Shown here in pieces: positions 19,175 to 24,260 of a stretch of 55,127 nt of DNA (positions within the stretch are counted from its first letter, which is position 1; each line of letters opens with the position of its first letter). A program made the position numbers and the translations under genes. Below the pieces are notes generated by a model that did no database searches, had not been told where the DNA came from, and saw only the letters and a program-made list of their open reading frames with translations. The DNA comes from Opitutaceae bacterium (GTDB lineage: Bacteria > Verrucomicrobiota > Verrucomicrobiia > Opitutales > Coraliomargaritaceae): positions 1-55,127 of the forward strand of contig QXZH01000039.1 of the NCBI GenBank assembly GCA_009886465.1, in the 5' to 3' direction.

Positions 19175-21133
19175 ATGTCTTTCTGCGCTCATATTGTCGC
19201 CCTACTTCTCTACCTTAGCGGCCTATGTCTCAGCGCTGCGCCAAAAACAAACCTCGTCGAGCTCTATCACGGCATCGCTGAGGGCAACTATTTAATCGGC
19301 GATCTCGCGGGCGCGGAACGTGGCGTTGAGCAAATGCTCCGCATAGACCCTGACTATCTACCTGCACTCACGCTCAAAGCGCGAGTTATGCTCGATCAAG
19401 GTAAGCCTGTGGAAGCACTTACAGCCGCCGACCAAGCCATCGCGCTTGACCCCGAAAACCACGAGCTCGGTCTACTTAAAGCCATCGCGTTAGGTCATAC
19501 GGATCGCCGCGACGAGGCCAAATCGCTTATACAAGAAATCCTCGCGAAAGCGGTGCCAGAGAGCGAAGATACTCGAGCGGCCAAGCAACTGCTCGGCCTA
19601 CTTCGTATGGCTGAGGGCGAGTGGGATGACGCCGCCATCGCGTTTAAAGAAATTTACCTTGCCGATCCCGAAACCGCCAGCACCAGCCTTCGCCTCACTA
19701 GCGAAGCCTACCTCGAAAAAGCGCGTGCGAAGCTGCAAGACGGCGCCCTAGACGAAGCCATCGCTGCAATCGACCAAGCTATCGCAGTCTACAAAGGTCA
19801 AACCGGAAAAGAAGCCCTCCAACAACGTAACACACTACGCTTGCTACGCGCCCGGCTTCTCACGCAAATTGGCCGTTTCGAGCTAGCGATCGCCGACTTG
19901 CAAAACTTCACCACACAACAGCCACAAAACTTCGAAGCCCTCATCACTCTAGCCTCCCTCTACGCAAGTGTGGAGCACTGGGAATCGCTAGAAGCTGTGA
20001 TCAAGCCCATAGCCAAGCGTCCCGAGCTACGCGATGTCGTCCTCTACCTCGAAGGCCGCGCCGCCCTCGCTCGGAACCGTGTCGGCACCGCACGAGCTAA
20101 GTTCGAAGCCGCGATTCAGGCGCTGCCAAAGGAGGCCGACCTGCTCCGCCGCAGCCTTTTCTTTTATCGCGGGCTTTGCCTCCAAAAACTCGGCCGTCAT
20201 GAAGAAGCCATTACTTCCATTCTTGACGCCATCGACGCTGGCTTCCGCCCTGAGACTAGTGAAGAAGCCCTCGTCGCAAGCCGCACCCTACTCCGTGCAG
20301 ATCGCGCGAGTGATGCCATCCCGATTCTCGAAGCCATCACCCTAAATCGCATCAATCCAGATGCTGAGGTCTGGGCAATGCTAGGCCGTGCCCACCTCAA
20401 CAGCGAGACACCGGCTCTAGCCCTGAGCGCATTCAATGAATCACTCTTAGTAGACTCCGAACAAGCCGAAGTACTCGGGCTACGAGGAGCACTTCTAAGG
20501 AAAATCGGCGATCTCGATGGTGCCCTCGCAGACTACACAAAGGCTCATCAAATCATCCCATCGAGTCCTGTCTTGAGCTACGAAAAAGGACTCGTCTTCT
20601 TGCAACTTGGCCGCCTTGAGGAGGCAGAAAGTTTGCTCCAAATCGCAGCGCGTAAACTGACGGCTCACTACACATTGGATCTGATGCACGCGACCTGCGC
20701 CTACGTGATAGGAAAAACCGAAAGCGCTACAGAATCACTTACTGAATACCTTGCCGAGATCCCGGGAGACCCCGAACTGAGTGCAATTTACTTAGCCCGA
20801 ATATTACAGGTCGATTTTAATAAAGACAAATCCAGAGTGAAATGGGGAAGCGATTCAGCTAAAAATTCACAAACAGCGTCTTTGGGAGATCCCGTGCTAC
20901 GATATTACAAAAGTGTAGCGAATCGAAAAGCTGTCCTCGATTGGGCAGGAATCGCCAAATCACCTGAAAAAGCGCGGCAACAAATTTGCGCAGCCGCTTT
21001 TTGGATGGCACAATGGGAAAGGACCTACGGAGATCCTACTAAAGCCAAAGAACTTTTAAAAATCGCAGTCGACTCAGGCAGTCCCGATCTGACGGAATGG
21101 CAACTGGCTACTTGGCAATGGGGCAAAAATTAA
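19175..21133 (+). CDS. secreted TPR-repeat protein
   Basis: A 652-residue protein with a signal peptide (about 1-21, ending LCLSAAP) followed by tetratricopeptide repeats over most of its length. The repeats are easy to see as segments such as ALTLKARVMLDQGKPVEALTA, with Asp/Pro-Glu turns (LDPEN, IDPDY). TPR arrays mediate protein-protein contacts. With gspE upstream on the same strand it might assist a secretion or pilus machine, but a small minus-strand gene lies between them, so no operon is implied. The last 120 residues do not show clear repeats. Confidence 0.8.
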   Translation: MSFCAHIVALLLYLSGLCLSAAPKTNLVELYHGIAEGNYLIGDLAGAERGVEQMLRIDPDYLPALTLKARVMLDQGKPVEALTAADQAIALDPENHELGLLKAIALGHTDRRDEAKSLIQEILAKAVPESEDTRAAKQLLGLLRMAEGEWDDAAIAFKEIYLADPETASTSLRLTSEAYLEKARAKLQDGALDEAIAAIDQAIAVYKGQTGKEALQQRNTLRLLRARLLTQIGRFELAIADLQNFTTQQPQNFEALITLASLYASVEHWESLEAVIKPIAKRPELRDVVLYLEGRAALARNRVGTARAKFEAAIQALPKEADLLRRSLFFYRGLCLQKLGRHEEAITSILDAIDAGFRPETSEEALVASRTLLRADRASDAIPILEAITLNRINPDAEVWAMLGRAHLNSETPALALSAFNESLLVDSEQAEVLGLRGALLRKIGDLDGALADYTKAHQIIPSSPVLSYEKGLVFLQLGRLEEAESLLQIAARKLTAHYTLDLMHATCAYVIGKTESATESLTEYLAEIPGDPELSAIYLARILQVDFNKDKSRVKWGSDSAKNSQTASLGDPVLRYYKSVANRKAVLDWAGIAKSPEKARQQICAAAFWMAQWERTYGDPTKAKELLKIAVDSGSPDLTEWQLATWQWGKN

Positions 21134-21316
21134 TGAATCCGCTCGCGCTTCGTCGCTTCAACCTCAGGCGACCAGCTAACATTTAGACATTCACTCACAC
21201 CTTAGATAGAGCTGTGAGCGAAATTCGTTTAAAAACAATATTCCAGTGTTTTTGGGTACTCACATTTGTACTTGCACCGCAGTCGCAAAACGACATCTTC
21301 CTGCCCTTCAGCGTTA

Positions 21317-21430
21317 GAACGGGCTCTGAGAAGAGTCCGTTCCTCGACTTCTCTTCATCCGAAGAGTTCAACGGTTCAGACGGCTCAGTGGCGGTCTGAA
21401 CGGTTTCGACAACTCGAAGCCCGCAAGTCG
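21317..21430 (+). promoter_or_regulatory. structured leader of rpsO, candidate S15 autoregulatory RNA
   Basis: Hand pairing gives an ordered fold. First comes an 11-bp hairpin, GAACGGGCTCT with AGAGTCCGTTC, capped by GAGA (21317-21342), which contains a G-C pair next to a G.U pair. Then CGACTT (21345-21350) pairs with AAGTCG (21425-21430) and encloses three hairpins: 21351-21366, 21374-21401 and 21405-21418. CCGTTC (21337-21342) can instead pair with a second GAACGG at 21398-21403, so two exclusive states are possible. The rpsO ATG follows 23 nt later. In several phyla S15 represses its own mRNA by binding such leaders. That this one does so is inference. Confidence 0.5.
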
Positions 21431-21453
21431 TGATTCACACAATCAAAAACACA

Positions 21454-21741
21454 ATGGCAAAATCAGCACCCGTAGGGGACACAACAATCGATAAGGAATC
21501 GATCATCAAGGAGTTCGGCCTTAAAGACGGCGACACAGGTTCGTCTGAAGTGCAAATCGCACTTCTCACAGCTCGCGTCAAACACCTCACCGAGCACTTG
21601 CGCGTCAACCGCAAGGACTTCCACTCACGCCGTGGCCTCATCGCCATGACCGCGCGTCGTCGTAAGCTCCTCGACTACCTTAAGCGTACAGAGTTCAATC
21701 GCTACACTGCGATCCTCGAAAAACTTGGACTCCGCAAATAA
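21454..21741 (+). CDS. rpsO: 30S ribosomal protein S15
   Basis: S15 is a primary binder of the central domain of 16S rRNA. The 95-residue protein has the family signature in [22 protein letters not shown] and continues [24 protein letters not shown], ending KLGLRK. I chose the ATG at 21454 (MAKSAPVG); an earlier GTG at 21430 falls within the leader's closing stem. There is no Shine-Dalgarno, but the leader is strongly structured. A strong terminator follows, and pnp lies downstream, the same rpsO-pnp order as in E. coli. Confidence 0.98.
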
Positions 21742-21757
21742 CGGATTACTTTTTCAC

Positions 21758-21790
21758 AATGCCGGACTTCATCGATGGGAGTCCGGCATT
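21758..21790 (+). terminator. intrinsic terminator of rpsO
   Basis: AATGCCGGACT (21758-21768), an 11-nt loop, and AGTCCGGCATT (21780-21790) form a perfect 11-bp GC-rich stem followed by TTAATTAA. It lies 16 nt after the rpsO stop. The T-tract is short (TTTT counting the stem end), so some read-through into pnp is possible. Confidence 0.85.
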
Positions 21791-21820
21791 TTAATTAACT
21801 CAAAGCCCCTCTTTCCCCTT

Positions 21821-21886
21821 CTTAATCATAATCTTAATCGTAATCCTCCCCGCCATCCGAGGATTACGATTAGGAGTAAGATTAAG
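21821..21886 (+). repeat. 28-nt inverted repeat built of hexamer units, pnp leader
   Basis: The left arm (21821-21848) is four hexamers of the form CNTAAT followed by CCTC. The right arm (21859-21886) is GAGG followed by four units of the form ATTANG. The arms are complementary at 25 of 28 positions plus one G.U pair. The inner 14 bp nearest the 10-nt loop pair perfectly except for nothing visible, giving a long rod-like RNA hairpin about 215 nt before pnp. There is no T-run, so it is not a terminator. It may be a repetitive palindromic element, an RNase III site, or both. Confidence 0.7.
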
Positions 21887-22100
21887 AGCTGAAGGAATGA
21901 ACTTCACCTTATTCTAAATGACACCGCCGTAGGAAAGGCTTTATGCCGCTATCCTCCCTACAAGCACCGATCAAAGCAGAAAGCCTCTCCTAAGAATTTT
22001 CATCCGAGCGTCCCGACCGATTCGAGCCGCGAGCGTCCAAGTAAGGTCCGATCCCCGAACAGTCGTTTTGAATGCATAAAGCAAAACCAAGACAAAGATA

Positions 22101-24260
22101 ATGAAACAAAAACATAACGTAACAGTCGAAGGTCTCGATATTGAGATCTCTACCGGCACCCTCGCAGGCCTCGCAAGTGGTGCTGTCACCATCCGCTCTG
22201 GCGAAACTGAACTCTTCGTTTCCGCCACTGCCGCGTCTTCACTCCGCCCCGGCCAAGACTTCTTCCCCCTCACTGTGGACTATCGCGAGAAATTCTCCGC
22301 AGGTGGTAAATTCCCCGGTGGCTACTTCAAGCGCGAAGGTAAGCCTTCCGAAAAGGAAATTCTCACATCTCGCCTATGTGACCGCCCGCTTCGTCCGCTC
22401 TTCCCTAAGGGCTTCATGAACGAAGTGCAGGTCATCGGCCTCCTTCTCGCGACGGATCAGCTCCACGAGCCAGACATCCTCATGGTTAACGCCGCCTCTG
22501 CTGCGACACTGATCTCTGACATTCCTTGGAATGGTCCAGTTGGCTGTGTCCGCGTCGGTCAAATTGATGGCGAATTCGTCACCAACCCGAACCACGACGA
22601 GATGCTTGATTCCGACCTCGACCTCATCTACGTCGGCTCCCAAACCGAAATGTTGATGATCGAAGGTTCTGCCGAGTTCATCTCTGACGAGCGTTTCTAC
22701 GAAGCCCTCGAATACGGTCAAAAAGCCATCCAGCCCATCATCGCAGCTCAACTCGAGCTCGCAAAACTTGCTGGTAAAGAGAAGAAGGACTTCCCCCTCC
22801 TCGTCACTCCTCAGGAAATCGTCGATTTCTGTGAAGAGCATGCCGCAGCGGGTGTGAAAGAAGCCCTCAACTTTGACAGCTACACCGAGCGCAAGCTCGC
22901 GATCGAAGTCATCGCCAAGGAAACTACGGTCGCACTCGAAGCAAAACTCGGCGCTGAGAACGTCAAGGGTGATGACGTCGCTCGCGCCTTTGATGAAATC
23001 CAAGAGAAGCTCTACCGCCAGAACATTCTCGATACTGGTAAACGGGTCGACGGTCGCGGCTCAGCTGATCTTCGCACCATCACCTGCGAGACTGGCGTTC
23101 TCCCACGTGTTCACGGTTCTGCCGTGTTCAACCGCGGTGAAACCCAAGCCCTCGTTATCTCGACACTCGGCACTAGCCGCGACACGCAGGACATCGATGG
23201 CCTCACAGGCGGCGCTAAGAGCAAATCCTTCATCCTTCACTACAACTTCCCTCCGTTCTCGGTCGGTGAAGCAGGTCGTTTTGGATTCACTGGTCGCCGC
23301 GAAATCGGCCACGGTGCCCTCGCAGAGCGTTCTCTCCTGCCCATCCTTCCTCCCGAAGACGAGTTCCCTTACGCCATCCGCGTAGTCTCGGAAGTGATGA
23401 GCTCTAACGGCTCTACTTCGATGGCTTCCATCTGTGGCGGTTGCCTCTCTCTCATGGATGCAGGTGTGCCTATTACCGCACCCTGCGCAGGTATCTCCAC
23501 GGGTCTCGTTACTGAAAAGGACGAAAACGGCAAGATCACCAAAAGCGTTCTTTTGACCGACATTCTCGGGGCAGAAGATCACTTCGGCGACATGGACTTC
23601 AAGGTCGCGGGCACACCCGACGGCATCACAGGTTTCCAGCTCGATCTTAAGATCACTGGTCTGCCCTTCGACATCGCGCTGGAAGCAATCAAGCAAAACC
23701 GCGATGCTCGCATGAAGATCCTCGCGATCATGTCCGAGCACATGCCAGAGAGCCGTAAGGATCTCCGCGAACACGCACCACGCATCCACACCATCTCGAT
23801 CGCACCCGACAAAATCGGTGCACTCATTGGGCCCGGCGGTAAAAACATCCGCCGCATCACCGAAGTGTCCGGCGCTCAGGTCGATATCAACGACGAAGGC
23901 AAAGTCCTCATCTTTGCCACGGACAAAGAATCCATGGATCGCGCGATCTTGGAAGTCGATGCCTGCACCGCAGAGATCGAAGTTGGTAAGACCTATCGTG
24001 GCATCGTTCGTGGCGTTAAAGACTTCGGCGCATTCGTCGAGTGCTTGCCTGGTAAAGAAGGCCTCGTACACATCTCCGAACTAGCTGACTTCAGAGTCAA
24101 CCAGACCGAAGATATTTGTAAGCTCGGCGACGAAATGGTCGTCAAGTGCATCGGTGTCGAAAAGGGTAAAGTCCGCCTGTCCCGCAAAGCTGCGCTTGAA
24201 GAAGCTAAGGAAGAATCCGAAGAGGAAACTACCGAAGAAGAAACAACCGCTGCCGAGTAA
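22101..24260 (+). CDS. pnp: polyribonucleotide nucleotidyltransferase (PNPase)
   Basis: PNPase degrades RNA 3' to 5' by phosphorolysis and is a degradosome partner in many bacteria. The 719-residue protein has two RNase PH domains (about 10-215 and 305-540) joined by a helical linker. The first has [20 protein letters not shown] and the second has [12 protein letters not shown] and [16 protein letters not shown] with the conserved acidic residues. A KH domain ([11 protein letters not shown] near 575) and an S1 domain (about 630-697) follow. The end is Glu/Thr-rich. It lies downstream of rpsO and a long hairpin, and is followed by a strong terminator. In E. coli PNPase represses its own mRNA after RNase III cleavage of a leader hairpin; a similar arrangement is possible here. 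Confidence 0.98.

Follow-up and report, generated by a model that had tools for sequence, protein, structure and literature searches.

S15 leaders are a textbook case of unrelated RNAs that have evolved to bind one conserved protein. The locus described here raises the question of whether the region upstream of rpsO in an Opitutaceae bacterium is another such leader and, if so, how it is built and how it might act. The window, the 55,127-nucleotide stretch of DNA that was analyzed, belongs to a 1.8 Mb assembly of 143 contigs and encodes both S15 and polynucleotide phosphorylase (PNPase). A first-pass annotation had described a structured leader at 21317-21430 and proposed it as a candidate new class of S15 autoregulatory RNA, with an S15 recognition cue in its first hairpin and a switch between two alternative pairings. 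The features of the locus are collected in Table 1.

Table 1. Features of the rpsO leader and its surroundings, in window coordinates.
Feature	Position	Strand	Basis or remark
Putative promoter	21271..21299	+	-35 CTTGCA 21271-21276, 17-nt spacer, -10-like CATCTT 21294-21299
Conserved 5′ segment GCGUUA	21311..21316	+	PK 5′ strand CGUU 21312-21315 between G21311 and near-invariant A21316
Hairpin P1, 11 bp	21317..21342 (21317-21327/21332-21342)	+	9/11 pairs covary, E<0.05
Closing helix PC, 5′ strand	21343..21350	+	5/8 pairs covary with 21425-21432
Hairpin P2	21351..21366	+	6/6 pairs covary
Pseudoknot (PK) 3′ strand AACG, directly abutting P3	21370..21373	+	Strand variants and covariation
Hairpin P3, candidate S15 recognition element	21374..21401	+	7/8 stem pairs covary
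Hairpin P4, directly abutting P3	21402..21421	+	7/8 pairs covary
Closing helix PC, 3′ strand, consensus AGUCGUG	21425..21432	+	Covariation with 21343-21350
A-rich linker, 21 nt, without Shine-Dalgarno	21433..21453	+	Sequence; between closing helix PC and rpsO
rpsO, ribosomal protein S15, 95 aa	21454..21741	+	phmmer against solved S15 chains, E 1.4e-26
pnp, polynucleotide phosphorylase, downstream of rpsO	22101..24260	+	Usual rpsO neighbour

Several other features lie around the gene. An in-frame GTG start at 21430, 5′ of the rpsO ATG in the window, overlaps closing helix PC, and its in-frame spacing to rpsO is not maintained in relatives. Immediately 3′ of the rpsO stop is a terminator-like hairpin (21758-21790; AAUGCCGGACUUC...GAGUCCGGCAUU) followed by UUUUAAUU, and rpsO is likewise trailed by a terminator-like hairpin in many family members. 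The gap between rpsO and pnp contains a long A/T-rich hairpin (21810-21895) built of TTAATCNTAATC-type units. This hairpin occupies the identical site in several members of the genus, and copies are scattered through some relatives (15 matches in G032 and 10 in G031); it is a palindromic repeat of REP/MITE-like type and a candidate RNase III site ahead of pnp.

The pairings named in the first-pass annotation exist in the window: P1 with its GAGA loop, and a helix of 21345-21350 with 21425-21430 that encloses three hairpins. The minimum-energy fold and the centroid of 21310-21435 both reproduce this nested structure exactly. The folding energy is -58.6 kcal/mol, as compared to -38.3 ± 3.7 kcal/mol for dinucleotide shuffles (z -5.5), and none of 200 shuffles is as stable. 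The element runs from 21310-21312 to 21432, slightly beyond the boundaries first assigned to it, and the end of the derived model lies ~20-30 nt from the gene in most of the order. Leaders share the sequence islands GCGUUAG, CCNYGRC, AACGG, GGC..GC, and AGUCGUG, with hairpins of variable sequence between them. The GAGA loop of P1 is a feature of the window and is not conserved. Opitutaceae-type leaders (L170, L160, L183, L191, and L036) carry an extra ~20-nt hairpin within the P3 cap, with the GGC..GC frame intact.

Conservation of these helices was examined in relatives, where the window S15 protein located rpsO in 38 of 44 family genomes and 163 of 178 order genomes. In an alignment of 30 family leaders, 31 of 48 pairs, PK included, show compensatory changes, and 90.5% of cells pair versus 32-46% in slid versions. 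Two-sided changes are found in 43 of 48 pairs among 78 aligned leaders, in which 92% of cells pair. A tree-aware test in the manner of R-scape was then applied, using a G statistic with average-product correction and a null in which inferred substitutions are reshuffled along the tree. With 94 leaders, the test scores 35 of 48 pairs as significant (33 of 48 in an earlier set), counts that lean upward for the nested helices because alignments A2 and A3 were fitted to those helices; no pair outside the proposed structure reaches significance in this test. The helices thus covary in relatives, contrary to the first outcome that the first-pass annotation had named as refuting it.

The annotation had overlooked a pseudoknot. 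CGUU at 21312-21315 pairs with AACG at 21370-21373 (PK), crossing the closing helix, and PK was never included in the model to which the alignments were fitted. In raw bases from 95 leaders, the strands read CGUU/AACG in 57, CGUC/GACG in 10, and CGCU/AGCG in 9; the remaining variants include a few with one wobble or one pair lost. The outer two pairs do not vary among the 78 leaders of alignment A2, with C21312 and G21313 present in 78/78. The third pair, 21314-21371, covaries significantly in the tree-aware test with 94 leaders (E 6e-4), and the fourth is borderline (E 0.06). At these two variable pairs, both bases switched from U-A to C-G within a single branch ~6 and ~5 times independently. 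In A2 itself, pair 21314-21371 is merely marginal (E 0.07) because insertions displaced some CGUC strands, a problem resolved by reading raw bases in more leaders. In L172 and L193, the complementarity extends to CGUUAGUG/CACUAACG. The crossing pairings suggest that the leader is an H-type pseudoknot in which PK is stem 1 and the closing helix PC is stem 2. Loop 1 would then comprise a near-invariant A and P1, loop 2 would comprise P2, and loop 3 would comprise P3 and P4. The loop 1 A (A21316) is present in 76 of 78 leaders, with gaps in the others.

A two-state switch, in which CCGTTC (21337-21342) pairs with either of two GAACGG copies, had also been proposed. CCGTTC is indeed complementary to both copies in the window, and both pairings are possible there. 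However, pairing with the second copy is complete in just 5 of 95 leaders, with 43% of cells pairing, and P1 itself covaries strongly. Such a switch is not conserved and is very improbable as an account of the leader.

The distribution of the leader was determined with covariance models. A model built from the 30 family leaders alone was run on 81 further rpsO loci, almost all of them drawn from beyond the family, and matched 55 at E values of 1e-19 to 1.5e-3; one extra row at E 0.43 is attributable to chance. A model built from 78 leaders, many of them from the same genomes later searched, finds matches in 103 of 178 order genomes, each in single copy. The link to rpsO is nearly exclusive: of 99 tabulated matches, 98 immediately precede rpsO in the same orientation, at a median of 23 nt from the protein match, and the other (G135, E 0.002) is located away from the gene. 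Named records with the leader are Opitutaceae, Opitutales, Puniceicoccales, and Puniceicoccaceae, and the leader-bearing order is the Opitutales/Puniceicoccales group of Verrucomicrobiota. Among 289 genomes of the phylum, there is no credible match beyond the order; the sole outside match is marginal (G438, another family of the class, E 0.0046) and has no rpsO nearby. In the one sister order sampled, none of 20 rpsO loci has a match beside the gene, weak matches elsewhere are at chance level, and the rpsO leaders are short and plain in appearance. Within the order, the 78-leader model does not find the leader in many reduced genomes of ~1 Mb. Four leaders (L161, L169, L174, and L194) keep the CG..CG pseudoknot islands and yet score below the model threshold, so 103 genomes is a lower bound and the family is probably wider than these counts.

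A conserved promoter-like element precedes the leader. CTTG occurs at -44 to -37 relative to the PK 5′ strand in 88 of 93 leaders, where ~4% would be expected by chance, and is accompanied by a T-rich -10-like stretch near -13 from the PK strand. From the promoter spacing, transcription is expected to start at ~21305-21308, which would place the entire structure within the transcript. The first-pass annotation had regarded a start downstream of 21317 as fatal to its proposal; the conserved -35 CTTG instead points to a start upstream of that position. No terminator was found on the + strand of the leader, which favors a translational read-out, and transcription attenuation was rejected for this reason. 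The absence of a terminator and of a Shine-Dalgarno sequence, together with the end of PC 21 nt before the AUG, makes translational feedback the likeliest mechanism. A message without a Shine-Dalgarno sequence could also need some other loading aid, and the leader could conceivably be a constitutive element that stabilizes the mRNA or helps load ribosomes without feedback. We consider this quite unlikely. An order-wide PK, invariant junction bases, and a P3 stem fixed at 8 bp exceed the needs of simple stability, and sister-order rpsO genes manage without such a leader. Moreover, the rpsO leaders known so far act in feedback (PMC4684408, PMC8470358).

The first-pass annotation had placed the S15 cue in P1, as a G-C pair beside a G.U pair, but this combination is not conserved: it occurs in 1 of 30 family leaders, and the site in family relatives is mostly a C x C or C x U mismatch. 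A candidate contact site is found in P3, away from P1. In the window, an 8-bp stem is followed by G21382.G21393 and then by G21383-C21392 and C21384-G21391. The 5′ arm of P3 is exactly 8 nt in all 78 leaders, a constancy unlike the varying lengths of P1, P2, P4, and the P3 cap. Directly above this stem, G.G is found in 47 of 78 leaders and G.U in 21, each with G-C next; in a wider set of 94 leaders, the counts are 38 and 37. The window carries the G.G form (21382.21393). PK, P3, and P4 join without linkers in 77 of 78 leaders, and the G.G/G.U-then-G-C element lies about one helical turn above this junction, where, judging from sequence alone, G21311 faces G21374-C21401. The element does not covary and is absent or different in about one-fifth of leaders. 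The P3 cap (GGC-loop-GCGG), which we take to resemble helix 23a of E. coli 16S rRNA, has a different topology.

This arrangement recalls the 16S rRNA site, in which S15 reads a three-way junction plus a GU/GC motif ~10 pairs away; a G-G mismatch replaces that motif in the Thermus leader (PMC4684408). The likeness was judged against published descriptions, not against these genomes' own 16S rRNA. The protein was also compared. The window S15 keeps the equivalents of His42, Asp49, and Ser52, which in E. coli S15 read the U-G/C-G motif, and has Ala at the position equivalent to Arg58, which E. coli S15 requires for a second pseudoknot contact (PMC8470358). This Ala and the absence of covariation at the G.G/G.U element are points against reading the RNA as an S15 leader.

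S15 is assigned as the ligand because of the gene association alone, and a structured RNA that regulates rpsO in response to something else has to be weighed. The ligand could be another ribosomal protein, a metabolite, or PNPase acting via RNase processing. RNases might cut at P1 and in the A-rich linker, and pnp usually follows rpsO. In two genomes, however, the leader and rpsO are retained with no pnp within 1.5 kb (G075 and G197), which favors S15 over PNPase, and PNPase was rejected as the main partner on this basis. The placement of all but one tabulated match before rpsO also argues against another ligand, and a G.G/G.U-G-C element at constant distance suits S15. In addition, S15 is the ligand of rpsO leaders in other bacteria (PMC4684408). 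Some other ligand is accordingly improbable, though less so than an element without feedback.

The data are best explained if rpsO is autoregulated through this 5′ leader, which would then represent an S15 leader class of new architecture acting on translation; we consider this reading likely. In the proposed mechanism, the transcript would start a few bases 5′ of GCGUUAG, and the RNA would fold into an H-type pseudoknot from PK (21312-21315/21370-21373) and PC (21343-21350/21425-21432), with hairpins in every loop. The trigger would be free S15, once its level exceeds that of unassembled 16S rRNA. S15 would contact two places, the G.G/G.U-then-G-C element of P3 and the junction close by, just as it contacts helix 22 and the three-way junction in 16S rRNA. 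With S15 bound, the pseudoknot would stay closed 21 nt before the rpsO start codon; the 30S subunit would be kept off or trapped, as in E. coli and mycobacteria (PMC8470358), and rpsO translation would fall. A bolder version, which we offer tentatively and think doubtful, is that the leader rebuilds the whole bipartite 16S site and arose once in the order. P3 would correspond to helix 22, and the PK/P3/P4 junction with a G21311·G21374-C21401 triple would correspond to the three-way junction. If true, the leader would combine the pseudoknot strategy of E. coli and the junction strategy of Geobacillus and Thermus in one RNA.

The leader does not belong to a known Rfam family. Searches with Rfam 15 return nothing at the gathering threshold in the window or in 20 order loci, and no relevant match at 21100-22150 of the window even at E up to 10; known Rfam families, including RF00114, were rejected on this basis. 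The proposal of a new S15 leader class retains its conservation, its covariation, and its separation from Rfam, and loses the P1 cue and the CCGTTC/GAACGG switch. In the literature, S15 leaders are known from Gammaproteobacteria, Alphaproteobacteria, Geobacillus and relatives, Thermus, Actinobacteria, Chlamydia, Flavobacteria, and two archaeal groups, and the accessible part of that literature names no rpsO leader for Verrucomicrobiota or Opitutales. The present leader would add an order-wide class in a phylum where no described rpsO leader was found. With ~100 sequenced members and strong covariation, its binding site is predictable and directly testable, and its absence from the sampled sister order brackets the time of its origin. 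Because the leader joins a pseudoknot to a GU/GC-like element, it also speaks to the frequency with which a common solution is reached independently.

Comparison with described leaders places the Opitutales RNA among them. It is a structured, conserved RNA in the 5′ UTR of a ribosomal protein gene, and it resembles them in placing a G-C beside a G.U (or a Thermus-like G-G) at roughly one turn of helix from a junction. The E. coli rpsO leader (RF00114) is alike in its S15-stabilized pseudoknot, its G.U/G-C motif in a stem, and its translational feedback (PMC8470358, PMC4684408), the last of which is likely here. However, the coding sequence begins within the pseudoknot in E. coli, whereas in Opitutales the pseudoknot ends 21 nt short of the start codon; the Opitutales leader also carries four hairpins and no Shine-Dalgarno sequence, and the Arg58 equivalent is Ala. 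The mycobacterial rpsO leader likewise has a pseudoknot upstream of the start codon, where it is required for S15 repression, and mycobacterial S15, like the window S15, lacks an Arg58 equivalent (PMC8470358). By its description, it differs in having a small pseudoknot, a canonical Shine-Dalgarno sequence, and no multi-hairpin junction, and it belongs to a different phylum. The Thermus and Geobacillus leaders, of the three-way junction type characterized by a G-G-C base triple, share a junction beside a long stem, and the Thermus G-G mismatch in place of GU/GC (PMC4684408) parallels the G.G found in about half of the leaders here; as described, their junction is not built by a pseudoknot and their helix order is different. 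Leaders reported for Alphaproteobacteria, Actinobacteria, and Chlamydia (PMC4137082) and for Flavobacteria and archaea (PMC7247131), with no verrucomicrobial member named, are similarly restricted to a phylum or class and were similarly found by comparative genomics. The best reading is that the Opitutales leader falls outside RF00114 and forms a new class among the S15 autoregulatory leaders, a kind already known.
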